Shown here piece by piece: positions 17,914-48,286 of a DNA stretch of 64,000 nucleotides. The stretch covers positions 228,724-292,723 of the IMG/VR virus record IMGVR_UViG_3300032053_000002. One strand, given 5' to 3'. A program made the position numbers and the translations under genes. The DNA is from a virus. Each line of letters starts with the position of its first letter. The first letter of the stretch is position 1. Under the pieces are notes generated by a model, which saw only the letters and a list, made by a program, of their open reading frames with translations, made no database searches and was not told where the DNA came from.

Positions 17914-19545
17914 TTAGACGGTTTCCAACCCATGAACTACTATTTTTCCGTAAAATTCCGGACGCACGATTTTCTTTGCGTATCGCGTCATAACCCCGCG
18001 TCTTGGCGTGAAGTTATCCGGGTCGTATACAAGAGGAGTCATGATTAATGGAATGTATGGAGCATAAACAGCGCCAGTTTCCAAGAAACTAGTTCCTCTG
18101 AATCCGACTAGAATTACGTTTTCAACCATATAAGGATTCTTATATACTGTAAAACGTGAATTCAACATACCGACTTTTTGAACGCCCATCGCGAACGACA
18201 TGGCGGTTCCATCAGTATCAGCCGCATATCCAGGAATAGATTCAATAATCGTAGCAATATCCGGTGATAAAACTATGAAGTTTGCACCACCGCGAAGAGT
18301 CAATTGATGAATCTTGTTGGATACTTTTTGAATCTTGTTGCCAAGAGTTTGATACCATTCGTTCTTTGTACCAGTGTGAGAAGTTGCATCATAGAACGAC
18401 GCTTTATCGGAAGAGATTTCCCACCCAGGAATGGCTGACCAGTATTCTTTAGTAACGGCATTCACCATTAACATATCAAGAATTTCGAGGTCAATTTCCA
18501 TACCAATATATTCGCTTAACAGAGCGGTAAGCTCGGCTTCAGCGTCTATTGAATGGTATGCATTCAAGTCTTGGGCAAGTTCAGGAGTCCATACGGCTTT
18601 CATCTTACGAGTTTTCGAGACGATGGATTCTTGAGCGACCGATAGGTCAATTTCAGGAATGTCAAGTTTTAATGCACTACCGGATTCAGACGTATCTTCG
18701 AAATCACCGCGAGCAGTAGCCGTTGGTTGTTTATGATAACGAATTACATACGAACTTCCAGAAAAATCAGTTAATTTGGCACTACCAGAAACAACCCACA
18801 TAATATTTGCACCGACAATTTTGGTAAATTGTGGCAAATAAGAATGAATACTACTACCAGAAACGGAAAATGCGCGAACGCCTTCCAAATCCAGATCGGA
18901 TAATGAACCGGTGTTATAGAAGATTTTTACTAGCTGGCCCGCAGAAAGTGAAGCTGAAACTAATCCGGTTGTAAAATCAATATCAGCGTATGCACACGCA
19001 GCAGATGCAAATGTATTTGTGGCAGCCGTTGCGCCCCAAATAGGTATACCACCAACACTAGTATCATTGACGGAATAACCGAATTTTCCAGCGCCATAGA
19101 GACCGCCGACCGTATCATCAGTTGTTCCCGGGGTTTTTCCAACACCTGAACCACCATATACGGATTTGTTCTGGGTAAACCCAGGTTGATGACCGCTTCC
19201 ATATTTAAAATCGATATAGAATACGAGTCCAGAAGGAAGATTCATCGGCTGAATAGAAACGAATTCCTTAGCAGCCACTTCGCCGAAAATACGGCGAACC
19301 AATGGAAGAGCGACACCAGACCATTGTTCAGCACCACCCCCGCCGGTTTGCGATACTTCATGCAATACCTGACGAGCTTGGTTTTCCAAAAGGATTGCCA
19401 TTCCGTATACTTCATGTTCTTTTTCCAGACCATCAAGTAAACCGGTTGGCTCCCATTTCTTTACTAAACCACGAGTCTGCTCAATAAGAGCGTCGTAAGG
19501 GTTTTTCCCTTCCATTAACTTTTTTAAGTTGAGCAATGTACTCAT
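17914..19545 (-). CDS. gp23: Major capsid protein precursor, gp23-like
   Basis: A 543-residue HK97-fold capsid protein aligning with T4 gp23. The stretch PLVRRIFGEVAAKEFVSIQP then MNLPSGLVFYIDFKYGSG matches gp23 VRRAIPN...VQPMNSPTGQVFALRAVYG. Later ELAQDLNAYHSIDAEAELT and YAPYIPLIMTPLVYDPDNF also match. The N-terminal propeptide holds LHE at 61-63 followed by VSQTGGGG, in the same place as the T4 cleavage LTE/AEIGG after residue 65, so I predict cleavage after Glu63. A second LxE site (LMEG, 10-13) lies in the propeptide. TTAGGAG before ATG; terminator follows. Confidence 0.95.
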   Translation of the reverse strand: MSTLLNLKKLMEGKNPYDALIEQTRGLVKKWEPTGLLDGLEKEHEVYGMAILLENQARQVLHEVSQTGGGGAEQWSGVALPLVRRIFGEVAAKEFVSIQPMNLPSGLVFYIDFKYGSGHQPGFTQNKSVYGGSGVGKTPGTTDDTVGGLYGAGKFGYSVNDTSVGGIPIWGATAATNTFASAACAYADIDFTTGLVSASLSAGQLVKIFYNTGSLSDLDLEGVRAFSVSGSSIHSYLPQFTKIVGANIMWVVSGSAKLTDFSGSSYVIRYHKQPTATARGDFEDTSESGSALKLDIPEIDLSVAQESIVSKTRKMKAVWTPELAQDLNAYHSIDAEAELTALLSEYIGMEIDLEILDMLMVNAVTKEYWSAIPGWEISSDKASFYDATSHTGTKNEWYQTLGNKIQKVSNKIHQLTLRGGANFIVLSPDIATIIESIPGYAADTDGTAMSFAMGVQKVGMLNSRFTVYKNPYMVENVILVGFRGTSFLETGAVYAPYIPLIMTPLVYDPDNFTPRRGVMTRYAKKIVRPEFYGKIVVHGLETV

Positions 19546-23653: not shown

Positions 23654-24304
23654 TTACATTTCGTCATCTTTTCGCCAGTATTTCGCGAGTTCTTTTTCGG
23701 CTTTTGGAGCGGCGCTATTTATATCATCTTTCAGATTTTGCATCACATCTTTCAGATATTGTTGTTTAGCAAAAGCGATTGCGCCTTTAACATCTCTCTT
23801 TTCGTAAAACTTTCGCTCGTTCATACCGATAGCGATTAAACCATCAACAATTTTTGGCTCTGGAAAATTCAGGAATTCTTCTTTGGAAAGTTCTTTCAAC
23901 AGTTGTTCTTTGATAAGACTTCGCAATTCGGATTTTTTCATTTTATTTCTCTCCTCAGCAATAATTCCGGCGTATCCATAAGATGTTCGTTTCCCTTTAG
24001 GCGCGATGGAGTGTCCATCAAACCACCATTTATCGGGATTATTTACAATGGCATCAACTTTTCCGAAATACTTTTTTTTATCAATGACGCCGTATCCCTT
24101 GATATAATAAAGTTTATTATCGGAATCCATCATAAACTTCCCGCTTCTCTGAACATCTATTTTAATATAGCTTTTTCCGGGTTTGACTTTAACCTGCCAG
24201 TCCGGCTCGAAAATTTGCCATTTATCTGGCGAAAAGTTCATATAGTATTCTTTTACTCGCTTCTCTAGAATTTCAGCGAATTTTTTCGCAAGTTGAACGT
24301 CCAT
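23654..24304 (-). CDS. Fusion: unknown domain plus tagged module
   Basis: A 216-residue frame. Residues 1-118 form a beta-rich domain (FEPDWQVKVKPGKSYIKIDV ... GHSIAPKGKRTSYGYAG) starting at an ATG with only a weak CAGAG site. At residue 122 an in-frame ATG (23941) starts MKKSELRSLIKEQLLKEL with a strong GAGGAGAG site. No stop separates the parts. The 95-residue C-terminal module can therefore be translated alone, or both parts as one chain whose tag would lie internally. Confidence 0.68.
   Translation of the reverse strand: MDVQLAKKFAEILEKRVKEYYMNFSPDKWQIFEPDWQVKVKPGKSYIKIDVQRSGKFMMDSDNKLYYIKGYGVIDKKKYFGKVDAIVNNPDKWWFDGHSIAPKGKRTSYGYAGIIAEERNKMKKSELRSLIKEQLLKELSKEEFLNFPEPKIVDGLIAIGMNERKFYEKRDVKGAIAFAKQQYLKDVMQNLKDDINSAAPKAEKELAKYWRKDDEM
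23949..23956 (-). promoter_or_regulatory. Internal in-frame Shine-Dalgarno site for ATG at 23941
   Basis: GAGGAGAG 7 nt before ATG within the open frame. It is stronger than the site of the upstream start of the same frame. Confidence 0.65.
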
Positions 24305-26533: not shown

Positions 26534-26770
26534 TTATTTCTCCCACTCTTTAAAATTATTTCTCATTGAAATAATCAATGCTTCCAAATGTTCAAGATCC
26601 TGCTCAAATGATAGCATGTCAAGCGATTTTAATGCTTGCTCACTCCATTTCATATATTGACCCATTAAATTTAATTGACTTTTAAGTCTTAGTGCTATAG
26701 TGTTCGGCGACCATTCCAGTAATTTCTCTCTTTCTTCGCGAATAATTTTTTTCAGTTCCGATTTTTTCAT
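26534..26770 (-). CDS. Tagged small protein (MKKSEL family)
   Basis: A 78-residue helical protein beginning MKKSELKKIIREEREKLLEW. The body (LRLKSQLNLMGQYMKWSEQALKSLDM in part) looks like a helical hairpin. CAAGGAGCACAACG precedes ATG; its start overlaps the upstream gene's stop by 4 nt. Confidence 0.68.
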   Translation of the reverse strand: MKKSELKKIIREEREKLLEWSPNTIALRLKSQLNLMGQYMKWSEQALKSLDMLSFEQDLEHLEALIISMRNNFKEWEK

Positions 26771-27300
26771 CGTTGTGCTCCTTGCGAATAATCGTTTTCA
26801 ATTATATCCTCAGCAACTTCTACGGCATCTTTTTCATTTATTAACGGGTCTTCTGACAACACCGACCAATGATACCCATCAACTTTTCCAACTACTTGCC
26901 ATGTATCATAAAACACTTCTCGTCCAAAATCACGAATAGACGCGGCTTTAATTTTCTTTTTCGCCGCATCATCAAACTCCTTTTCTACAGTAATAGTAAA
27001 TTTTGATGCATCGTGTCGCCATTTATTTTTACCAGTTTTTTTCCATCCATTAGGTAAATTACCTTCATTCAGGTTAAGCAACCGTAAAATTTCTTCCTTT
27101 ATAATTTGTCGCAATTCGGATTTTTTCATTTTGTGCTCCTTTTTAGTTTCATTCTTTTTTATCCGAAAAGTAACCACCTTTCTTCCGTTAATAGTAGGCA
27201 TTCCGTGTTCGTCTTTACCTATACTTTTTATTTCCGTTGATTTGTTCTTAAATTTTCCGGTAAGTATTATGTCGCCTATTTCTACAGGTATTGTTATCAT
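26767..27300 (-). CDS. Fusion: small beta domain plus tagged module
   Basis: A 177-residue frame starting at 27300, where GGGGAA precedes ATG (a Met 4 codons upstream is possible). Residues 1-55 form a small beta domain (IPVEIGDIILTGKFKNK ... GMPTINGRKVVTFRI). At the in-frame ATG 27129 a tagged module begins, MKKSELRQIIKEEILRLLNL, then NEG, giving an LNEG site. That ATG has its own AAAGGAGC site and no stop precedes it. The 120-residue second part is alpha/beta and unassigned. Confidence 0.68.
   Translation of the reverse strand: MITIPVEIGDIILTGKFKNKSTEIKSIGKDEHGMPTINGRKVVTFRIKKNETKKEHKMKKSELRQIIKEEILRLLNLNEGNLPNGWKKTGKNKWRHDASKFTITVEKEFDDAAKKKIKAASIRDFGREVFYDTWQVVGKVDGYHWSVLSEDPLINEKDAVEVAEDIIENDYSQGAQR
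27136..27140 (-). promoter_or_regulatory. Internal in-frame Shine-Dalgarno site for ATG at 27129
   Basis: AAAGGAG 6 nt before ATG inside an open frame; would give a separate 120-residue tagged protein. Confidence 0.65.
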
Positions 27301-27326
27301 ATTATTCCCCATCTATATATCTGATT

Positions 27327-27639: not shown

Positions 27640-28257
27640 TTACTTCTCCATATCAACTAAAATTTCAGTAATAATTTCCTGTATTTTATCATATTTGTCG
27701 CTTTTTTTGGAAGACCTTTTATTTACCGACTCATGCAACGATTTCATAAACGCACCCTGTGTACTCGGATTGCTCACAGTATCAAATGCGATTAGCTCAA
27801 AGTCGTCCTGAACCTGATTTGCACCATCGGTGGATTCTTTTACAGAACCGAGACCACGAGAAGAAATCCCGATCCGTATTCCAGATTTTAATAATTCTTT
27901 CAGAATATTTCCAGACGGAGTCCCCAATATTTCCAGCGTGCCTATCAGATCATCGTTAGTCCAGTGCATCTCCACGATATTATGACTAACGTTTGATAAG
28001 TTGACTACACTACTGTCCGGGTGGTCTAATTCACCGAGAGCGCGTTTTTGATCGACGAATTCTTGCAAATATCGTTTAACTTCTCGGGATAATATTTCTT
28101 TTGGATATATTCTTCCGTTCTGATTTTTTGAGTTTGCGCGTTGTAGCACTCCGGTGATTAAAATTCGCCCGTTGTTTTTTTCGAGCGACTCGTTAATCAT
28201 TGAAGGCGACACATCAAACGGAACATAATCCACTAATAATTGTCTATTGTCACTCAT
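27640..28257 (-). CDS. gp21: Prohead core protease, gp21-like
   Basis: A 205-residue serine protease of the T4 gp21 family (herpes-assemblin-like fold). GRIYPKEIL (49-57) is the conserved substrate-loop region. The catalytic His is H79 in LGELDHP and the catalytic Ser is in GISSRGLG (S132/S133). In T4 this enzyme assembles in the core, activates itself and cuts head proteins after (L/I)xE. INESL at 21-25 and a charged C-terminal tail could be self-cleavage regions. It sits between portal and scaffold as in T4, surrounded by tagged genes that are its likely substrates. Confidence 0.92.
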   Translation of the reverse strand: MSDNRQLLVDYVPFDVSPSMINESLEKNNGRILITGVLQRANSKNQNGRIYPKEILSREVKRYLQEFVDQKRALGELDHPDSSVVNLSNVSHNIVEMHWTNDDLIGTLEILGTPSGNILKELLKSGIRIGISSRGLGSVKESTDGANQVQDDFELIAFDTVSNPSTQGAFMKSLHESVNKRSSKKSDKYDKIQEIITEILVDMEK

Positions 28258-32102: not shown

Positions 32103-35100
32103 TTACTCATCATTTTCATTATTATTTACTTCTTTATTTTCTTTAGGTTTAGTTTTTGATTCTGAAAAGAAGTCTTTTAATTTGATTTCAAAATCGCCCT
32201 CAAATTCTTTTAGAATATCAGGTTTTGAAGTGGTGATAAGTCTTCTTCCCAAAACGGCTTCAGCGTGTTTTAACCTTCTGCTCAGGTGCTTATTTTTGTT
32301 TGCGTCATAATTTAGCTGAGTATCCAACTTTAATATCTTTTCATAATCTCGCTGCCCAAGTGGGTCGTCTCCAAACGGTTCATCCTTGTCGCGAGTTCTA
32401 AGTTTTTTTCCACGGCGACCATCATCGGATGGATTTACCGGTTCGTATTCTTCTTTCTTTTTATCTGCGGAACCACTACTTTCAGTCTTATCATAATTTA
32501 AATTAAACTTTTCATTTCTTCCCGCTTCATCAGTCTCTTCCCCGCCAAATGTCTGGTCTGTTTTCGCCGGGTCGTTTCCTTCGGTTTCTATTTGCGATAA
32601 CCTAAACGCTAATTTTGCGTCTTCTACTACCTGTTCTTTTTCTTCCGCAATTTCATCTTCCGTCATATTGAAAATATTTTTGTAAATCCAATATGTGCTT
32701 CTCATTTTTGTATCTTTCGCGTCTCTGGCGAGAGAAATTTTAGAGTTCCACAATTCAACCTTTTCTTGTTCGTAAATAATGCTCGGAATGGTCAGCTCCA
32801 ATTCAAAATCAACAAGGTCGCTCCCCTTAAATCCCTGAATGAATAAATGAACCAATGCAATTTTAGTCAGTTCAGAAATAATTACTTTTTGAAGTCGTTC
32901 AACAGTGCGACTAAACCGAACATCCTGGGATGCAAGAGTTGCTTTGCTATTATGCACAATCACTCCGGCGTCAGTTGCAAAATTAGAATACTCTTCTATT
33001 GTTATATCGCAAGTATTTTTTCGTTCAGTTAAAAACTCAACACTAACTACTTTATGATTTAATACGTATTTATGAATAAATCTTTTATTATTCATCGCCA
33101 ATAACATATTTTCGCAAATAAATGTTTCTTTATTGATGCCGAATCTGTCAAAAAGTTTGTATAATGTTTTAATGTCGGTGAGACCTAACCGATGTCTTAA
33201 TTCCTTAAATGATTTACTGTTTTTTGCAGCATCCAATAAGTTTTCATATTGTACTTTTGTATATTTTATATTATCAATTCTATCGTTGCCATAATCTTTG
33301 CAAGAACATTCAAATGAACAATACTTCCTATTTCTACCAAGTTCTGCCCAAAATTCTTTTCCGCAACATACACATTTTCTATTTTCTCCAGTTTTCATAT
33401 CATTATGATAACATTCATAACTACAGTATTTAGCATTTCTATCTCTATATGGGTAAGTATAAAATGACTTACCACACGATTCGCAATTAATATATTTTCC
33501 ACTTTTTTGACCTTTTTTAAGATTTTGATGGTATCGCCTATGCCCCCAATAATCCATCGAGCAATCAAAGTTTTCAGGATAATTATTTTCTTTTGTAAAA
33601 TCTTTATGATGAACCACACATCCGCTACCCTTTTTGACTAATCCATAATGTTCGGCAACAACTCTGTGTACTTCTTTGTATTTCTCATTATTTGGTTGAT
33701 AAACAGTGGAATACCCCCTATCAGTTTCATTCAAATACAACGGCATTAAACTTTGACCGACCAATAAGTCTTTCGCCTCGACCCATCTTCCATCGCGAGT
33801 CAGAAACTTATGGTCAGAAGTGCAATCAATATATTTTTCGTTATCTAATTTTACTCTTACCAATTCCGCATTTTTTCTAGTGAATCCGGCCCAAGTAATT
33901 TTTCCAGGAACAATGCTATTCGTTTTTTGGTTTATAGAATATGCATAATTAGTTATTCCATTTTCATAATCTTTGATAAGTTCCGCAACAGTTTTAGTTT
34001 TACCATTCAATAGAGGTATTTTTGTTTCAGGAACTATACAATTAAGCGCTTCTTCGTAGCCAAGAAAAGCTTTCGGAACTTTTAACGCGGCCATTAATTT
34101 ATCTTTTAAATACGCGATATCGTCTATCGCGTTATATTCAAGCCCCGCCAACGATTCGATAGAAGTCCCGCTATCTCCACCACGAACCGGTAAATAAAAG
34201 TCTTCCGTGATATTTTGCATATTAAATTTTAGGTTATATTCGCCAGTGGATTCGTCAATATACGGAATCTTTTTAACTTTATTCATAATCACTTCCATAT
34301 ACGCATCAACTTCGTTAGGCGCAAGATTTCCAACGTCTATTTTGAATACCCTTTTTTCTGGCGCACGCATAATACGATGAATAAGCATTGCGTCTTCCAT
34401 AAGTATAAGTTGTTTCCAGACTCGGCGAGCACCTTCTATTATCGAGTTATGTACCACAAATCCTTCAGCGACAAAATTGTGCAAACTATTATCTATCTGA
34501 ATATCATATACATCATCTTTTCCGATATATTCTATGCTTTGTACTTTTTCTACAGCATAATTTTCGCTGATTTTTTTATAGTCGCGAGATTTTTCTCTAA
34601 AAGTAAATAAACACATTCCTTTATTTTCTGATTTAGCACCCCAGGTGCGAGTAACCGAAAATCCCGCCTGGACTGCTAAGGCGCGGGAATCTTGCATCAA
34701 TTTATAATTCACAGTTCCGATTTGCCAAAGTCCTTCGCTAATATCACAACCATCGGCATCGGCAAATCCATACAAAAATTCTTTTTTGGTATTGGCATCT
34801 AATCTCCAAATCCACTCCGGAACTTCTTTATTAAAAGAACCTGTTATAAATCCCAACTGTTCAAATAATTTATAAAAATAAACAGAATTCACAACACAAG
34901 ATGAATCCGATTTCAACTCATTTGTTAATCTATAATTTATACCTAATTTTTCTATAAAATCTAAATACTTTTTGCTTTTATCTAGTCTGTCGCCAATAGA
35001 AAAACAAACTGTTTTATTTGACTTGTCTAACCAACCATCTCCAATCATAAAACCGAAAAATCTGACAAAATCATTAAAATTATCTTTTAATATGTTTTCA

Positions 35101-36125
35101 TCAATAATTTTTAATTTGGAATCGTATTTCCAATTTTCGCTTTCTTCCACTATCAACTTAGGATATGACTTTTCTATATTCGCAACTGGAAACATCAAAT
35201 GGTCGTTTACTGTAAGTTCAGAAACCAGTTTATATTTACCGTCTTCAGTCATTATTGGATGACTTTCAGTAGCATATAAAGTTTGATGAGCAGTTTTAAT
35301 TTTGTATATTTCCTTTCTTCCAGAATAAATAGTTTTTATAACACGAGATTTCAACAATTTTTCATCGTTATAATCAAACGAAAAAACTTCGTCGTTTTCT
35401 TCCACGTCTTTTATATTTTTAATTCCAGAAGAAGTCCAGACTTTACTGTCCCATCTTAAACATTTACCATACGGAAGAAAGTTACTATCACTATTCAGTC
35501 TAAAATGCGCAACCTGAAATTTTTCAAATTCCGCTTTTCCGGTCATTCCTTGTAAAACAAACTTCACCTCGTCGGGCTTTTTCGGGTCTATTCCTTCCAA
35601 CCGTGTCACTTCATAAACCGGAAGAGGCATTACTCCAGTTACACCATATTCTTTCGCCAAGTCCAAGTATAAAAAATAATCGCCATATTTGCACATTCCC
35701 CGAACCCACGTCGGTAAATTAAATTCTATATTCATTATATCGTAAAAAAGATTTTCTAACACTTCTCGAACACTTTTTGTTCCCGATTTTATTCTCAAAA
35801 TATATCCCATTTCATTTTTTAATGTGCTCTCTTCTGAGAAAACATCGAGTGCAGCAGATATAATTGCGTCCATATCCATAACTTCATAATCTCTAAACAG
35901 TTGCAATCTTGCAGCAGTAACTCCGTAGGGAGTTCCCTGGGCGAAAGTTCCATAACTTAGCGTAGAATACAAACGAGTGTATTTATCATTCATTCGTCTG
36001 TCGCCGATTTTCTGCACCGAGTCTATATCAACTACGCGCAGACGGCGACCACCGATGTTACGAACTACTACATCACTGGAAAAAAATCTTTTTAATCTAT
36101 TAAAAATGTTGTCATTAGTTGCCAT
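32103..36125 (-). CDS. gp20: Portal vertex protein, gp20-like, interrupted by two inteins
   Basis: A 1340-codon frame encoding a 637-residue portal plus two in-frame inteins. The spliced sequence reads SNFLPYGK-SIIEGARRVWKQL and GYEEALN-SKATLASQDVRF, both highly typical of T4 gp20 (EGARRPWKQL, GYEEGIGGKATLAAQD). The portal forms the dodecameric DNA gate and starts head assembly. Exteins: residues 1-221, 561-695 and 1060-1340; the C-terminal 120 residues are charged. Both inteins sit at strongly conserved positions, which is normal for inteins that home. AAAGGAATT precedes ATG. A correct product needs two splicing events. Confidence 0.95.
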   Translation of the reverse strand: MATNDNIFNRLKRFFSSDVVVRNIGGRRLRVVDIDSVQKIGDRRMNDKYTRLYSTLSYGTFAQGTPYGVTAARLQLFRDYEVMDMDAIISAALDVFSEESTLKNEMGYILRIKSGTKSVREVLENLFYDIMNIEFNLPTWVRGMCKYGDYFLYLDLAKEYGVTGVMPLPVYEVTRLEGIDPKKPDEVKFVLQGMTGKAEFEKFQVAHFRLNSDSNFLPYGKCLRWDSKVWTSSGIKNIKDVEENDEVFSFDYNDEKLLKSRVIKTIYSGRKEIYKIKTAHQTLYATESHPIMTEDGKYKLVSELTVNDHLMFPVANIEKSYPKLIVEESENWKYDSKLKIIDENILKDNFNDFVRFFGFMIGDGWLDKSNKTVCFSIGDRLDKSKKYLDFIEKLGINYRLTNELKSDSSCVVNSVYFYKLFEQLGFITGSFNKEVPEWIWRLDANTKKEFLYGFADADGCDISEGLWQIGTVNYKLMQDSRALAVQAGFSVTRTWGAKSENKGMCLFTFREKSRDYKKISENYAVEKVQSIEYIGKDDVYDIQIDNSLHNFVAEGFVVHNSIIEGARRVWKQLILMEDAMLIHRIMRAPEKRVFKIDVGNLAPNEVDAYMEVIMNKVKKIPYIDESTGEYNLKFNMQNITEDFYLPVRGGDSGTSIESLAGLEYNAIDDIAYLKDKLMAALKVPKAFLGYEEALNCIVPETKIPLLNGKTKTVAELIKDYENGITNYAYSINQKTNSIVPGKITWAGFTRKNAELVRVKLDNEKYIDCTSDHKFLTRDGRWVEAKDLLVGQSLMPLYLNETDRGYSTVYQPNNEKYKEVHRVVAEHYGLVKKGSGCVVHHKDFTKENNYPENFDCSMDYWGHRRYHQNLKKGQKSGKYINCESCGKSFYTYPYRDRNAKYCSYECYHNDMKTGENRKCVCCGKEFWAELGRNRKYCSFECSCKDYGNDRIDNIKYTKVQYENLLDAAKNSKSFKELRHRLGLTDIKTLYKLFDRFGINKETFICENMLLAMNNKRFIHKYVLNHKVVSVEFLTERKNTCDITIEEYSNFATDAGVIVHNSKATLASQDVRFSRTVERLQKVIISELTKIALVHLFIQGFKGSDLVDFELELTIPSIIYEQEKVELWNSKISLARDAKDTKMRSTYWIYKNIFNMTEDEIAEEKEQVVEDAKLAFRLSQIETEGNDPAKTDQTFGGEETDEAGRNEKFNLNYDKTESSGSADKKKEEYEPVNPSDDGRRGKKLRTRDKDEPFGDDPLGQRDYEKILKLDTQLNYDANKNKHLSRRLKHAEAVLGRRLITTSKPDILKEFEGDFEIKLKDFFSESKTKPKENKEVNNNENDE
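32949..34040 (-). mobile_element. Intein 2 in portal, with HNH nuclease and zinc motifs
   Basis: 364 residues from Cys696 (ALN/CIVPETKIPLLNG) to His-Asn1059 before Ser1060 (IVHN/SKATLA). The N-terminal splicing block has CTSDHKFLT (block B, with T-x-x-H). The centre has an HNH-like nuclease (CVVHHKDF, EN, NFDC, WGHRRYHQN) and two Cys pairs (CESCG/CSYEC, CVCCG/CSFEC). The C-terminal blocks F and G are CDITIEEYSNFATDAGVIVHN in part. All residues needed for splicing (Cys1, His-Asn, Ser+1) are present. Confidence 0.93.
34446..35462 (-). mobile_element. Intein 1 in portal, with LAGLIDADG nuclease
   Basis: 339 residues from Cys222 (PYGK/CLRWDSKVWTSSG) to His-Asn560 before Ser561 (VVHN/SIIEGARR). 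Block B is YATESHPIM (T/S-x-x-H). Two LAGLIDADG helices are seen: FVRFFGFMIGDGWLD and KEFLYGFADADGCD. Blocks F/G are VYDIQIDNSLHNFVAEGFVV then HN. All splicing residues are present. It differs in nuclease type from intein 2, so the two were acquired separately. Confidence 0.95.
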
Positions 36126-36823: not shown

Positions 36824-37189
36824 TTATTTTTCTCGCATAACTTCTTTTACTAACTCGCGAATAATGTCGCGAAGTTTCAATTCTTTTATCTTCATTTCAT
36901 CTCTTCTTTTACTGTCGCGAATAATCTGCGCATATTTGCTCCAATCGGGTGGAAGCACAGGTGTTCCATCATTCGGTAAATCTCTGAGAACCTTTACATT
37001 ATCTATCGTAAACCGTAGCAATTGCCCACCCGGCATTTTGCCGATTATACCTCTGTTCGTATTAAATGATCTCGCAAGTTTATTTTTTTCATCTGCCGGT
37101 ATAGGCATTTTTTCTATTCTAAAGTCTATTAGGCCAATACCCTTCGCATTATAAACGGCGTGCGGAGTCTCCAGTATTTGTTTATTCAT
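36824..37189 (-). CDS. Small protein ending in a tag-like helix
   Basis: A 121-residue protein. Residues 1-98 form a mixed domain (GIGLIDFRIEKMPIPADEKN ... GQLLRFTIDNVKVLRDLP). From Met99 (ATG at 36895, weak AAGAGAT upstream) to the stop only MKIKELKLRDIIRELVKEVM-REK follows, which is the helix tag with nothing behind it. The tag is thus C-terminal here. The upstream start has a weak AAAGAAAG site. Confidence 0.6.
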   Translation of the reverse strand: MNKQILETPHAVYNAKGIGLIDFRIEKMPIPADEKNKLARSFNTNRGIIGKMPGGQLLRFTIDNVKVLRDLPNDGTPVLPPDWSKYAQIIRDSKRRDEMKIKELKLRDIIRELVKEVMREK

Positions 37190-38999: not shown

Positions 39000-39383
39000 T
39001 TACTTTAACGTAAGACCGACCGTTGTAATTATTAGCAATGAAGTGGCAATCCGATATATCCATATTTCTATATCTTTATCTTTTAGCTGTTTGTTTACTA
39101 CCGCAAGTTGCTCTTTTCTGAATTCTAGTTGAATATCTTTTTTTGCCATAATAGAATCAGCAAGCTGATTTGCTCTTTGTAACTCATATACTTCTGATTG
39201 GAATAAAGAGCATCGCTGTTCGTATAAATTATTCAAATATTCGCAATTTGATAGTTCGGAATCCACTTCAGTATATGTATGTTTCAGAAATTCCCAATCT
39301 TCCCTCGCGACTTTTATAGAATCTTGCGCAAATAAATTAACAGAAAGAAATAATAATAAAACTAAAAATATAAACTTTTTCAT
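39000..39383 (-). CDS. Exported coiled-coil protein with C-terminal membrane anchor
   Basis: A 127-residue protein with a cleavable-looking signal peptide (MKKFIFLVLLLFLSVNLFAQ/D), a periplasmic coiled coil (about 25-100) and a C-terminal transmembrane helix (IWIYRIATSLLIITTVGLTL). TTTGGAGAAG precedes ATG, which overlaps the upstream stop (ATGA). Together with the upstream gene it forms a two-gene membrane coiled-coil pair, which could act as a spanin-like lysis pair; this is inference only. Confidence 0.6.
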   Translation of the reverse strand: MKKFIFLVLLLFLSVNLFAQDSIKVAREDWEFLKHTYTEVDSELSNCEYLNNLYEQRCSLFQSEVYELQRANQLADSIMAKKDIQLEFRKEQLAVVNKQLKDKDIEIWIYRIATSLLIITTVGLTLK

Positions 39384-39700
39384 TTATACTTCTCCAAAAT
39401 ACTTTTCGCCAAATCACGTTTTTCTTTTAAGTTTTGTTGTTTCTTTTTATGTTCTTCAATTTGTTTATCTAGAAGTTTTCCTTGTTCGTCCAATTGATTA
39501 GCGTTATCTAAATGCAACTTTCGCTCATTTTCCAGTGCCTTTATCGTGTTTTGTAAGTACGCAATTTCTTTTTCCAGTTGTTTTAATCTTTCTTCACTAC
39601 CATCTTTTTTCAAAATCAACCGATAAAGAATTATCATGCCAATAAGGACGAGCGCTCCCCATACCCATTGAAGAACGGATTTCAATTTTTGACAAAACAT
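39380..39700 (-). CDS. Membrane-anchored coiled-coil protein, spanin-like
   Basis: A 106-residue protein: one N-terminal transmembrane helix (VLQWVWGALVLIGMIILYRL) followed by a long coiled coil to the end, the layout of an inner-membrane spanin (Rz). Start at 39700, as CAGGAGAAAAA precedes that ATG; a TTG further up is in frame. The stop overlaps the next start by 4 nt, showing translational coupling with the exported partner. Confidence 0.6.
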   Translation of the reverse strand: MFCQKLKSVLQWVWGALVLIGMIILYRLILKKDGSEERLKQLEKEIAYLQNTIKALENERKLHLDNANQLDEQGKLLDKQIEEHKKKQQNLKEKRDLAKSILEKYK

Positions 39701-39722
39701 TTTATTTTTCTCCTGCGGCAAC

Positions 39723-41300
39723 TTATATCGCTTTATTGGTTTCGGCGCTTCCTATCTGAGTCACTCTTTTTTTCGCACGTTTACGGCTAAGCCCTCCAGG
39801 AATTTCGTTAAACATAACGAATTTTAGCTCTTCCCGAACCAACTGACGAACTTTCTGAACTTCTTTGCTTTCTTTCGCAACGATTTGATCGCGTTTTTTT
39901 GCTTTCAATCTTTTTGTCGGGTTATATTCTGGCTCACCCGCTGCCTGAGAAACTGGCTCAAGAGTTTCTTTTTTAATTTTTTCATCTTTGCATTCAGATT
40001 TGCCTTTCCAATTTTTTTCCACGTATGAAAAGAATTCATCTTTTTTGTCGCCTAAGTCGGCTGGCGATTTTGCACCGAACTTCTCAAGTGCGTCTTTGAA
40101 GAATTGCTGATATTCATTGGTTTCTTCTGCCAAGACTTCTTTGATAAGCCCTTTTAATTCTGACATTTTGATCTTCATCGTATTTTCTCCTAGTTGATTA
40201 TTTTCGTTCTTTTTATTTTTTATTGCGTGTCCTTCAAATCCATACGCAATTTTCCAAGCATCGTCTCTGTCAATTTGCGGATTTGCTTTCATTATCGCTC
40301 TTGCCATTGAAGTAGCATCGGGATATACGACAGCTAAAGCGGATTTAATTGCGTTTTCAAATTTCTTTTCCTGAGCTGCGGAAACTTCCTTTATCATCGT
40401 ATTCTCTCCTTGTTGTATATTTTCTTTTATCATCACAGTATTATTGCCACTAAATTGCAAATCTAATACTGTTTTATGTCCTTGTTGTTGCATATATTTT
40501 GCAAATTTTTGAGCGTCGGTTTTGTCGCTAAAACGGAATTCCAATCCTTCTTTTCCTTTACTAACCGGTTTCCCAACAGATACCAATTTCATTTTTTTAG
40601 CAACTGGTAAACCGTCGTCAAGTGCCTTTTTGAATTTTTTTGGAATAGGACTCGTTATGCGAAATTTAGGTTTTTGTTTAGCACCGGTTACGTCACCCGC
40701 TTTCGTTTTTTGTCCCGAAACAGTTACTACGGTATTGGGTCTAACCTCGTGTTTTTCAGAGTATTTTGTAAATTCATCTTTATCCGCAAATTCTAATTCT
40801 TTCAATGAATTTTCTTTTATTGCCACATAATCTTTAGTCCGTAATTTATCTTCCAAATTTATCGGGGATATTCTTGCAGATTTTATTTGTTTATCATCTG
40901 GAATAATCATATAATTAAAATTTTTATCGTCATATTTTATTGTCGCAGTCAACCACCCCTTTCCAGAACCTTTGTAGAATTTTTCAAACTTTATTCTAAA
41001 CGGTTTCAAATGCGCAGAAAGTTTATTTAATCGCGACAAATTATATTTTCCGCCTTCATTCATTTTATTTTCTCCTAATCGTTTTATATTCGCCGGTATT
41101 TTACCGCCTTTTTTCGCCATGTCTTTTTTCAGATCGTCATAGGCGTCAGCGTCAATACCGTGTTCAGTCTCGTTCCATTCTTTCGCTTTGGCGACCAACC
41201 CATCTAAAGTTAAATCACCATTTTCTACATCTACCAAGCCTTCCATATCAGCCTTTCGTTTCGCGTTTTTATTCTTAAAATAATTTATTGGATAGCTCAT
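39723..41300 (-). CDS. Four-module in-frame gene fusion, head-associated
   Basis: A 525-residue frame in which four modules follow each other with no stop. Module 1 (1-79): MSYPINYFKNKNAKRKADM... Module 2 starts at Met80 (41063) after TTAGGAG; module 3 at Met302 (40397) after CAAGGAG; module 4 at Met375 (40178) after CTAGGAG. The linkers all read G-E-N-(K/T)-M because GGAGAAAAT is translated. Module 4 carries a tag (MKIKMSELKGLIKEVLAEE) and FKDALEKFGAKSPADLGD; near its end is another tag-like helix (QKVRQLVREELKF). Modules 2 and 3 are unassigned. It is either a polyprotein or four genes lacking separate stops. Confidence 0.7.
   Translation of the reverse strand: MSYPINYFKNKNAKRKADMEGLVDVENGDLTLDGLVAKAKEWNETEHGIDADAYDDLKKDMAKKGGKIPANIKRLGENKMNEGGKYNLSRLNKLSAHLKPFRIKFEKFYKGSGKGWLTATIKYDDKNFNYMIIPDDKQIKSARISPINLEDKLRTKDYVAIKENSLKELEFADKDEFTKYSEKHEVRPNTVVTVSGQKTKAGDVTGAKQKPKFRITSPIPKKFKKALDDGLPVAKKMKLVSVGKPVSKGKEGLEFRFSDKTDAQKFAKYMQQQGHKTVLDLQFSGNNTVMIKENIQQGENTMIKEVSAAQEKKFENAIKSALAVVYPDATSMARAIMKANPQIDRDDAWKIAYGFEGHAIKNKKNENNQLGENTMKIKMSELKGLIKEVLAEETNEYQQFFKDALEKFGAKSPADLGDKKDEFFSYVEKNWKGKSECKDEKIKKETLEPVSQAAGEPEYNPTKRLKAKKRDQIVAKESKEVQKVRQLVREELKFVMFNEIPGGLSRKRAKKRVTQIGSAETNKAI
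40187..40192 (-). promoter_or_regulatory. Internal in-frame Shine-Dalgarno site for ATG at 40178
   Basis: TAGGAG 8 nt before ATG; start of module 4 (151 residues, tagged) of the four-module frame. Confidence 0.65.
40406..40411 (-). promoter_or_regulatory. Internal in-frame Shine-Dalgarno site for ATG at 40397
   Basis: AAGGAG 8 nt before ATG; start of module 3 (MIKEVSAAQEKKF...). Confidence 0.65.
41072..41077 (-). promoter_or_regulatory. Internal in-frame Shine-Dalgarno site for ATG at 41063
   Basis: TAGGAG 8 nt before ATG; start of module 2 (MNEGGKYNLSRLNKL...). Confidence 0.65.
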
Positions 41301-41833
41301 CTTACCAACTCATTTTTTTTACAAAAATCAATAATCAGTTTTATATCTTTATCAGAAAAATCTTTTCCGTAGATATTTCTTGCGTAGCCTTTCGTAAGAT
41401 ATTTTTCAAAGTCACCATCAAAGCGACCCTTTGCCGATTCTATTGCGAGCGCAATAAAATGTCTTTCGTCTTCATTCGCCATGTCGCCATCGCTCAACAT
41501 TAAACTTTTTAATCTAGGAAAAGTTGTTGAATAATACTGACCTTGCGTTTTGAAACTTATATTTGGTTTCGGTTTCTCTTCTTCGCCTTTTCCTTCAGGA
41601 GATTGCGGCTCTTTCGGTAAAGACATTCCGCCACCGCCGCCACCACTGGCCTGTTTTACATTGGATTGTCTTTTATCAAAGTTTAATTTTTCTTTGTTAA
41701 AATCTGTTTTTTCTTTATCCACATCAATTTTTTGTTTTTGTAACTTATTTTTTTCTTTTTCCGATTTATCTACGGAAGAAGTTTGTTCTTTTAAAATATT
41801 CCGTATCAATTTCTTTAATTCATTTATTTTCAT
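41297..41833 (-). CDS. Tagged protein with coiled coil and poly-Gly linker
   Basis: A 178-residue protein beginning MKINELKKLIRNILKEQTSS, a tag with an LKE/Q site. Residues 20-58 are a Lys/Asp/Glu coiled coil, then a GGGGGG linker and a Pro/Glu-rich stretch (PKEPQSPEGKGEEEKPKP), and a globular C-terminal domain (FIALAIESAKGRFDGDFEKY). Start at 41833 with GGTGAG upstream; an ATG five codons earlier is possible. Start overlaps nothing; stop overlaps the next start by 4 nt. Confidence 0.65.
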   Translation of the reverse strand: MKINELKKLIRNILKEQTSSVDKSEKEKNKLQKQKIDVDKEKTDFNKEKLNFDKRQSNVKQASGGGGGGMSLPKEPQSPEGKGEEEKPKPNISFKTQGQYYSTTFPRLKSLMLSDGDMANEDERHFIALAIESAKGRFDGDFEKYLTKGYARNIYGKDFSDKDIKLIIDFCKKNELVR

Positions 41834-41853
41834 CGTTTTTCTCACCATATATG

Positions 41854-41879: not shown

Positions 41880-42125
41880 TCACAATCCTAAAACAATTTT
41901 GATTACGAACGCCAAAAGAACTCCGCCGGCACCTGCCAATAGGCCCCACAACCCGGATTTTATTTGTAAAGAAGTTATATCATTATCCAGTGCACTTATC
42001 TTGTTCAGCAACTCGATCACGTTTTTTCGCAAGTTTTCGTTCTCCGTTTTGAGTTCCCGTACACTTTCAATGATATAAATTTTATATTTATCCCAATCAG
42101 TTCCGTTACTAAGTTCATTACCCAT
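41880..42125 (-). CDS. XhlA-like coiled-coil protein with C-terminal membrane helix
   Basis: An 81-residue protein: an acidic coiled coil (about 15-55, VRELKTENENLRKNVIELLN) followed by one transmembrane helix (WGLLAGAGGVLLAFVIKIVL). This is the layout of the XhlA haemolysin/holin-associated family. It overlaps the upstream putative holin gene by 8 nt. A role in lysis is inferred from this pairing. Confidence 0.62.
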   Translation of the reverse strand: MGNELSNGTDWDKYKIYIIESVRELKTENENLRKNVIELLNKISALDNDITSLQIKSGLWGLLAGAGGVLLAFVIKIVLGL

Positions 42126-42465
42126 TATCTTCGTCTTCTTCTGATCCGAGTATTTTCAGTTTTCCAGGGTTGTTCGGATCGGGAATAACATCACCATCCG
42201 ATTTATTACACAACGAATCAACCGTATATCCGGCCGTAAATACACCAACCACACTCAACCCACCCGTCGCGATCAATGATGCGTATAAAACTATTGCGGA
42301 AATACAGGTAACAAGCGTATTCTTAAAATGACTACTAAAATACTGTTTAATATCTGCGAATGTTTCGCCCAATATTTTTTTCTTTAGAAAGTGACTAAGA
42401 ACTCCCAGCCACAATACAATAAAGTATAAAAAATAAATTAAAATTTGCATCCAATCGATATTCAT
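42118..42465 (-). CDS. Putative holin, multi-spanning membrane protein
   Basis: A 115-residue protein with two or three hydrophobic segments (about 8-28, 48-68, and a Gly-rich 66-82) and a polar acidic C-terminus (GSEEDEDNG). TTGGGAGAAAA precedes ATG. Size, topology and its overlap with an XhlA-like gene suggest a holin. No endolysin is seen nearby, so this remains tentative. Confidence 0.55.
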   Translation of the reverse strand: MNIDWMQILIYFLYFIVLWLGVLSHFLKKKILGETFADIKQYFSSHFKNTLVTCISAIVLYASLIATGGLSVVGVFTAGYTVDSLCNKSDGDVIPDPNNPGKLKILGSEEDEDNG

Positions 42466-43037
42466 GACTTTTCTCCCAATTCTTGTTTTTCTTCTTTTTC
42501 TATTTTTTCAAGTTCAGAGTCAACAAATTTTAGCTCATTTTCCCAGAACTCTTTTATTTTTTCGTCGACCGTCCACTTTTCAAATTCGCCTTTTTCATTT
42601 ACAAACTCAATATATCCTTTTTTCATTTCTTCAAGATAATTCCCGATCTCCGCTTTCGCTTCCGAATAAAACCCCCTTTGTTTGCTTCTAATATATTGTT
42701 TTTCATATTGCTGAAAAGTTCCTTCGGTTATCATTTTCGCGTCTCGTTCAATTAAGCAACTTAAGCAAAATCCGAACTTCCAGTAAACATGCATATCTTT
42801 TGATGCTTTACCGAGAACATTTTTGCATTTAGGGCAAAACAATGGAATATTCGCATCTATTTTCGGAACTTTTACTTTATAACCGTTTTTTTGTTCCCAT
42901 TCCCCATTCTCGTCTTCCCACACATCACCTATTTGATGCAACGTTCTTATATTTGGATTGATATACCCAACTTGGACTTTGGGATTTTCTCCGCGCAAAA
43001 CCGAGCGGATTCGTTTAGGATAAATATATTTGCTCAT
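42462..43037 (-). CDS. Zinc-ribbon protein of the structural region
   Basis: A 191-residue protein. Residues 66-92 hold a four-Cys ribbon (FCPKCKNVLG ... FCLSCLIE). Flanking it are RTLHQIGDVWEDENGEWEQ and a long C-terminal helix, strongly charged. TAGGAGTT precedes ATG. I recall zinc-ribbon proteins of this look near packaging genes in T4-like marine phages, but no function is known to me. A homing endonuclease gene overlaps its first 23 bases. Confidence 0.65.
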   Translation of the reverse strand: MSKYIYPKRIRSVLRGENPKVQVGYINPNIRTLHQIGDVWEDENGEWEQKNGYKVKVPKIDANIPLFCPKCKNVLGKASKDMHVYWKFGFCLSCLIERDAKMITEGTFQQYEKQYIRSKQRGFYSEAKAEIGNYLEEMKKGYIEFVNEKGEFEKWTVDEKIKEFWENELKFVDSELEKIEKEEKQELGEKS

Positions 43038-43815
43038 TTTTAACTCCTATAAATTTCTTTTTGGTCATTGATAATTTATATTTTTCATTTCTTTCTTTTT
43101 GTCTTTTATCGGCTTCATTTTTACCATACTTATTTAACCAAATAGAGTATATTGATCTACCATACATAGGATTCTTTTTGCCTCTATTTAAACCTGGATG
43201 CTTTTTACCATAATTAGGATTATCATTATTTGCTCCATATTTTTTATGCCATTCACTCATTTTCTTTTTAGTTTCTTCTGGGTGATGTTTTCCGAAAAAT
43301 GGATTGTTTTCTCCAGACATTCGTATTGATAATTCCGGAAATTTCTTCCCAAAATTAGGATGATTCTTACCTATTCTTTTTTTATTTATTTCTGATAGAT
43401 CAGGTCTTTTCTTACCGTACATGGGATGATTTTTTCCAGTTCTACCATACATACCATTTTTTTTACCACGGCAACTCATCGCGGGCCACGCGCCATTATT
43501 TGCCCAATCATTCCTCTTATAAATTTTTTTATTTACTTTGACTTCATATTTTCGCGCTTCGTCTATTGTATCAAAAGTCCAACGCAATTTCCACTCAAAA
43601 TTATTAGGATTTTTCTTAAATTCCTCTTGAAATGTGCCACTTGTAAAATAATTTTTAGAAAAATCATCCGCCGGACAGATTTTAGAAAAAACGTTAGCAT
43701 ATCTCAATCCATGATATTTTAACCCATCAGATTTCCGTTTAATAAAATATGTATATGGTTTTATTTTAGTAAAATGTTTTGTCTTCAATTTGTTCGCTCT
43801 TTTTTTATAATGCAT
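43015..43815 (-). CDS. NUMOD3-containing homing endonuclease, GIY-YIG-like
   Basis: A 266-residue protein. The N-terminus (YTYFIKRKSDGLKYHGLRYA, then EARKYE) resembles a degenerate GIY-YIG or SegE-type nuclease domain. The rest is at least six NUMOD3-type repeats (GKNHPMYGKKRPDLSE, GENNPFFGKHHPEETKKKM and similar). No Shine-Dalgarno site precedes its ATG, as with the nuclease at 9057. Its end overlaps the start of the zinc-ribbon gene by 23 nt, a sign of insertion. Confidence 0.72.
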   Translation of the reverse strand: MHYKKRANKLKTKHFTKIKPYTYFIKRKSDGLKYHGLRYANVFSKICPADDFSKNYFTSGTFQEEFKKNPNNFEWKLRWTFDTIDEARKYEVKVNKKIYKRNDWANNGAWPAMSCRGKKNGMYGRTGKNHPMYGKKRPDLSEINKKRIGKNHPNFGKKFPELSIRMSGENNPFFGKHHPEETKKKMSEWHKKYGANNDNPNYGKKHPGLNRGKKNPMYGRSIYSIWLNKYGKNEADKRQKERNEKYKLSMTKKKFIGVKNEQIYLS

Positions 43816-47257: not shown

Positions 47258-48286
47258 TTATATATATTTTTTCTTTCTAAGTTCCCACGCCCTTCTTAGT
47301 GCGCTTTTATGTTCTTCACTTTTCGGTTTCCCTTTTAATGACAAAGAAAGTTTTTCACTTATTTTTCTTTTGTGTTCTTCTGATTGATGTTTCCCCTTCC
47401 AATATGCGCACTTCTTTCTTATTTCAGGATCTTTCATCGCTTCTTTTGTCGCCCGTGAAATTTTTTCACTCATTTCTGATGACTTCATAATTTCAGAATG
47501 TTTTGAGTTTTTTATTCCTGTTTTTATTCTTTGTTTTGTTTCTTCACTTCTTTTACGACCCGTATGTAATTCTTTTGCGTATTGCGCGAATAACTTTTTA
47601 TTTTCTTCGGTGTGTGTTTTTCCATAGAACGGATTATTTTCACCAAAAAAATTTATACTTCTCATTTTTTCAAGACCGGATTTACTATAAATCTCTTCCC
47701 ACGTTTTTCCTTTTCTTATTTCACTTATTTTTCTACGGCGCTCTTGAGAAAACACTTTCCCCTTTAGAGAGTTGCTTATTTTTTCTCTAACTTCAGGTCG
47801 TTTTACTGGACTATTTTCTCCACTAAGTTTTTCACTCATTTTTTTTCTAAATTCTTTATTTTTCCACCTTTCTTTCATAACTTTACTTATTGATTTAGAT
47901 ATAAGATCTTTAGTATAATCACTCATTTTATAGTTACCATTTTTTCTTCTGGTATTTACTATTTTTCCGACAACCTCGTTTGTAGCTCTTAAACCTTCTC
48001 CTCCATAAGTAAGATTGCATAAGCTATCAATTCCTATTTCATTTATTCTTTTAATCTCTTTTTCATACGCATCATTCTCGTTTTCGGTAATAAAGATTTT
48101 TTTATATTTTATTTTCATGTTCCCATTCATTATCTTTTTAATTTTATTAAAAAGTTTTTTATTTCCATGCGGGATCTTTCCTCTTTTAACATTTTTAGCA
48201 TGAAAATACATTCGTAATCCCGTCCCCTTTCCTATATAAAAAGGTTTGTTATTTCTTGGGTCTATAAGCTCATATACGTAATACAT
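47258..48286 (-). CDS. GIY-YIG homing endonuclease with NUMOD3 repeats
   Basis: A 342-residue protein. The N-terminal domain has YYVYELIDPRN...PFYIGKGTGLRMYFH, the GIY-YIG motif in the form V-Y ... Y-I-G, with catalytic Arg in LRMYFH and Glu in NENDAYEKE, then NLTYGGEG. Residues 120-342 hold NUMOD3-type repeats (GENNPFYGKTHTEENKKLF, GENSPVKRPEVREKI). AAGGAGAAAT precedes ATG, unlike the two nucleases lacking a site. It is inserted between the fibre gene and the trifunctional enzyme gene. Confidence 0.9.
   Translation of the reverse strand: MYYVYELIDPRNNKPFYIGKGTGLRMYFHAKNVKRGKIPHGNKKLFNKIKKIMNGNMKIKYKKIFITENENDAYEKEIKRINEIGIDSLCNLTYGGEGLRATNEVVGKIVNTRRKNGNYKMSDYTKDLISKSISKVMKERWKNKEFRKKMSEKLSGENSPVKRPEVREKISNSLKGKVFSQERRRKISEIRKGKTWEEIYSKSGLEKMRSINFFGENNPFYGKTHTEENKKLFAQYAKELHTGRKRSEETKQRIKTGIKNSKHSEIMKSSEMSEKISRATKEAMKDPEIRKKCAYWKGKHQSEEHKRKISEKLSLSLKGKPKSEEHKSALRRAWELRKKKYI

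Follow-up and report, generated by a model that had tools for sequence, protein, structure and literature searches.

Stop-less chain of phage gene modules retaining their own Shine-Dalgarno sites and start codons

I found that a 525-codon ORF without internal stop codons joins four modules in one frame in a large, T4-like phage, and that the second, third, and fourth modules each begin with an ATG preceded by its own Shine-Dalgarno (SD) site. The chain probably gives rise both to read-through fusions and to nested products that start internally, and it carries leader peptides that would target the capsid and be cleaved by a protease of the T4 gp21 type. The window, that is, the whole stretch of 64,000 nucleotides analysed here, forms the last part of a virus record of 292,723 bp; its features written below with two dots between the coordinates lie on the minus strand.

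The ORF occupies positions 39723..41300. The ATG of module M1 (41064..41300, residues 1-79) overlaps with the TGA of the upstream gene as ATGA. M1 is followed by M2 (40398..41063, residues 80-301), M3 (40179..40397, residues 302-374), and M4 (39723..40178, residues 375-525), the last of which consists of a leader, a YQKFF helical domain, and a C-terminal tail. There is no stop codon between any internal ATG and the preceding one, and codon usage scores all five segments of the ORF as coding in frame 0 only. The first internal site (41061..41076, ATG 41063) reads TTAGGAGAAAATAAA before the ATG and is translated as the linker L-G-E-N-K-M. The second (40395..40410, ATG 40397) reads CAAGGAGAGAATACG with the linker Q-G-E-N-T-M, and the third (40176..40191, ATG 40178) reads CTAGGAGAAAATACG with the linker L-G-E-N-T-M. 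All three have the form AGGAG-N8-ATG. Thus, the description in the earlier note, with one 525-codon frame, three ATGs each 8 nucleotides after AGGAG, and G-E-N-(K/T)-M linkers, was confirmed throughout. Its view of four joined genes holds for the stop-less modules with their own SD-ATG sites and needs one refinement, because M2 is itself composite. M2C, the C-terminal part of M2 (40398-40688), has 58% amino-acid identity to the upstream module of the relative L025, where this half forms the start of a homologous ORF.

The regular design had been judged unlikely to be due to chance, and this was borne out. The pattern AGGAGARAATANRATG has four matches in the window at up to one mismatch, while 0.05 are expected from shuffling, and its three exact matches are the three internal starts. 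In the whole genome (292,723 bp), 98 strong-SD ATGs are followed by at least 60 codons; only 10 of them are also preceded by an open stretch of at least 60 codons, three of the 10 being inside this ORF. AGGAG is found 5-9 nucleotides before 3 of the 13 internal Met codons of the ORF versus 3 of 273 in 40 other ORFs of the window (Fisher P ~0.001), and two of the latter three belong to ORFs of the same design. Each of the three internal starts lies in a 45-nucleotide stretch that lacks structure (0, 0, and -0.9 kcal/mol), the reference for the ORF being a mean of -4.3 kcal/mol with an sd of 2.75. The AlphaFold2 model of the whole ORF is a low-confidence one (pLDDT 51, pTM 0.25) and not strong evidence, with dips in confidence at residues 294-311 and 356-384, which are joints two and three. 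M4 was modelled as helices only (pLDDT 70, pTM 0.33), which is not strong evidence either. Phage polyvalent proteins (PMC5512222) likewise carry several unrelated domains per polypeptide in a late-gene context. Unlike them, this ORF has no recognised protease or enzymatic domain, and its modules retain their own starts.

The third internal start is kept in four lineages. M4 begins with MKIKMSELKGLIKEVLAEE, and its YQKFF helical domain is widespread among uncultured phages. Distant phages have a free M4 gene starting at the homologous Met, namely LR756508 (L006) and marine-type contigs, L075 and L082 among them; in LR756508, it sits between homologues of the neighbours of M4 in the window. In the window phage, L025, L002, and L062, whose amino-acid identities are 61-70%, M4 is fused in frame to one of three different upstream partners. 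The partner is M1-M2-M3 in the window and M2C in L025; L002 and L062 share a KOW-like module in this position. M3 is absent from L025, L002, and L062, and M4 lies directly behind M2C in L025. AGGAG-N8-ATG is nevertheless present at every fused M4 joint, where the sequence is CAAGGAGAAAATACAATG, CAAGGAGATAATACAATG, CAAGGAGAAAACACAATG, or CTAGGAGAAAATACGATG. Pairwise DNA identity is 0.83-0.94 at the joint (-15 to +3), compared with 0.40-0.80 upstream and 0.49-0.77 downstream. The linker before M4 is KQGENT or KQGDNT in the relatives; the SD falls on its glycine codon, which is GGA in every case, whereas the other wobble positions of the linker vary. A stop at the codon overlapping with the SD (TAAGGAG) is only one or two changes away, but this codon is a sense codon at all M4 joints. 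Changes at third positions are in excess in M4, M2C, and the KOW module, which indicates that both sides of the joint are coding.

The earlier note had suggested looking in related phages for the modules as separate genes and for conserved internal ribosome sites. The third internal start was indeed conserved beyond its flanks in four lineages, and M4 is free in L006 and L075. In contrast, no free or informative relatives of M1, M2N, or M3 were found, M3 being seen in the near-identical contig L001. Thus, conservation beyond L001 covers the third internal start only. A scan of the genome contigs with M4 gave zero cellular relatives. M4 was also considered as a T4-like antiholin (PF24205), and this was rejected (E 0.016, 15.4 bits versus a cut-off of 27); no antiholin structures were among the PDB profile matches of M4.

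Is this design found elsewhere? A second ORF in the window (26767..27312) has a 61-aa upstream module followed by AGGAG, ATG 27129, and the leader MKKSELRQIIKEE; its upstream module occurs in LR756502 as a separate 60-aa gene that ends in a stop codon. A third ORF (23654..24304) has a 121-aa upstream module followed by AGGAG, ATG 23941, and the leader MKKSELRSLIKEQ. In a second orthologous family, located near the terminase, the MPIP module is joined to a leader gene; the joints in L062, L025, and L144 have GGAG-type sites, and their linkers (HLGEIT, DWSIN, and NMEDIN) are unrelated. In the window member of this family (36824..37189, ATG 36895), the SD is degenerate, and the downstream part is a 24-codon leader only. 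Thus, the SD, the ATG, and the leader are retained in three of the four lineages, though the linker peptide differs. This conservation of SD, ATG, and leader but not of the linker peptide favours internal initiation. The MPIP module had zero matches in the phage collection. Among 2122 internal Met codons in four related records, 14 have AGGAG, 33 are leader-like, and 6 are both, versus 0.22 expected. As the leader-start regex was written post hoc, after the cases had been seen, and four of the six overlaps are M4 orthologues, this count amounts to about three independent cases. Judging from these comparisons, the stop-less SD-ATG design is recurrent and is not an error.

The M4 leader MKIKMSELKGLIKEVLAE (40125..40178) ends with an LxE motif (VLAE), a predicted cleavage site. 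The leaders that open small genes of these phages fall into two types, A (MDKKLWNKLFRENTL..E) and B (MKKSELRQIIREE..LNE). An [LIVM]xE motif, which is characteristic of T4 capsid-targeting sequences, lies at residues 11-26 in 25 of the 26 listed leaders versus 3 of 22 control proteins. The gene upstream of the chain (41297..41848) has a type B leader in the window, and its orthologues have type B in L025 and L062 and type A in L002. Since the same protein carries either type in different phages, the leaders are exchangeable. The window encodes a Peptidase_S77 prohead protease of the T4 gp21 type (27640..28257; PF03420, E 1.4e-30; phrog_207) and a gp23-type major capsid protein (17914..19545; PF07068, E 1.7e-75). 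QVLHE|V, near the expected N-terminal cleavage position of the latter, is a putative site. In T4, gp21 cleaves after L/I-X-E, and the targeting sequence is a short N-terminal peptide that is cleaved off (PMC9026906). Given the [LIVM]xE leaders, the S77 protease, the gp23-type protein, and the specificity of T4 gp21, capsid targeting is most likely the role of the leaders, and the prohead protease could plausibly cut within the leader. The T4 proteins IPI-IPIII and Alt, which are cleaved by gp21, show the same arrangement of a short N-terminal [LIVM]xE leader before varied small proteins, and T4 has the same combination of an S77 protease and a gp23-type capsid protein. Unlike the 10-residue sequence of T4 IPIII, the leaders here have ~17-25 residues and are of two sequence types. 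Furthermore, unlike those of T4 head proteins, some are internal to a longer frame, and their targeting and cleavage are predicted. Since M4 has membrane-protein genes with a possible role in lysis as its neighbours, it is not necessarily head cargo. Small membrane or coiled-coil proteins flank the ORF on both sides (41880-42465 and 39000-39721); they are holin-/spanin-like, with weak family matches.

How might such a chain work? It probably arose from formerly separate small late genes. Ribosomes starting at 41300 would translate the modules without interruption into long fusion proteins, and those binding at the internal SD sites would restart in frame and yield shorter, nested products. Since no stop codon intervenes, read-through products must arise if the first start is used. 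The shortest nested product would be M4 with its leader exposed at the N-terminus, where it would most likely serve as a T4-kind capsid-targeting sequence and be removed by the gp21-type protease through a cut after [LIVM]xE. The leader would lie in mid-chain in the long products. It could still target the prohead, and a cut there could separate the upstream modules from M4. I infer initiation at the internal sites, the leader role, and the cleavage from the sequences. The lineages number only four, and some of the fusions could be recent relics. A more speculative extension, which I consider possible but rather doubtful, is that the chain delivers cargo in two modes: internal initiation would provide an N-terminal leader, and read-through would provide an internal leader that targets and releases the upstream modules. 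Since the partners are exchangeable at the SD-ATG joint, one anchor gene might gather new cargo in this manner.

The strongest competitor of nested products, though still an improbable one, is that the 525-aa chain is the main product and is cut by the gp21-type protease at [LI]xE near the joints, the SD-like sequences being secondary. The genome encodes the S77 protease, and [LI]xE is found within 12 residues before the internal Met at all six GEN-linker joints and at five of seven independent joints (background 0.08-0.13 per joint). Module chains with possible protease sites do exist in related phages, as far as their sequences tell. An ORF of L167 (406-3528, 1040 aa) looks like a phage polyprotein, having 11 ES(V/K)xE linkers between modules of ~40-110 aa and a last segment of 180 aa. 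Among its modules is a homologue of the KOW partner (27% identical to that of L002), and the YQKFF domain occurs within a similar chain in L118. The L167 chain had zero matches in the phage collection, and a search of one literature library for repeated ESVTEA/ESVNE linkers gave no paper. Against cleavage at the joints, the position and the residues of [LI]xE vary, the SD itself makes [LI]xE at two joints (CTAGGAGAA = LGE), and the motif is absent at two of the three SD-bearing joints of the MPIP family. Where the linker peptide diverges, the SD is retained. LxE in the GEN linker was thus discarded as a conserved design, the counterparts being KQGENT or KQGDNT in the relatives and the three unrelated peptides in the MPIP family. 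Of the two outcomes offered in the earlier note, nested products gained support from the SD-ATG site kept in four lineages, the swapped partners, and the free M4, whereas LxE cleavage at the GEN linker did not hold. A polyprotein in a broader sense is conceivable, with the T4-type S77 protease, the LxE at the end of the M4 leader, and the L167 chain in its favour.

It is less likely still that the modules now form one multidomain protein in which the internal SD-ATG sites are relics of separate genes. Complete fusion does occur here, because the inner M2N/M2C joint in the window has neither an SD nor a Met, and the degenerate SD of the window MPIP copy points in the same direction. However, the SD-ATG of M4 is better conserved than its flanks among lineages that are 61-70% identical in amino acids and differ in partner. 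Lastly, a sequencing or assembly error that deleted stops between separate genes, to which A-rich runs close to the M3/M4 joint might predispose, is very improbable, because the same frame is found in L001 at two joints and the in-frame M4 joint recurs in three other lineages, with two contigs each. L001 spans residues 247-525 and differs there by one synonymous and zero amino-acid changes; it encodes the same frame from residue 247, and an error is therefore unlikely at the second and third joints. Together with the other contigs, it rules out an error at these last two joints, while the first joint (41063) has a single source. Thus, the junction error that the earlier note had named as refuting its reading is itself largely refuted.

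The lambda C/Nu3 genes are an in-frame nested phage gene pair with an internal ribosome site. T4 gene 21 has a second in-frame start at Met45 (PMC9026906), and Ms6 lysA/lysA241 are in-frame nested phage genes with an internal ribosome site (PMC3111421). Nested products from the present chain would resemble these three systems in using the same frame and an internal ribosome site to make a shorter product with a common C-terminus. While in-frame nesting is already known from T4 gene 21 and Ms6 lysA, the three systems are single nested pairs inside one gene. The present ORF instead strings distinct modules together with three internal starts in succession; its nested gene has different upstream partners in different relatives and also exists as a gene of its own. 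The consecutive starts, the swapping of partners at a ribosome site that is conserved, and the association with leader peptides are new. Gene finders call such a chain one protein, and short products with a functional leader would thus be missed. If the nested reading is true, fusing genes at the ribosome site is a way for phages to acquire and exchange small head (or late) proteins, and SD, ATG, and leader inside an ORF would be a sequence rule for hidden genes in large phages.

The T4-type portal gene of the window (32103-36125, minus strand) has an intein splicing domain at residues 703-1059 (E 6.8e-34), and residues 229-311 give a second HINT match; thus, it probably carries two inteins. 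Homing endonuclease genes (NUMOD3, phrog_314) are located among the late genes at 43015-43815 and 47258-48286.
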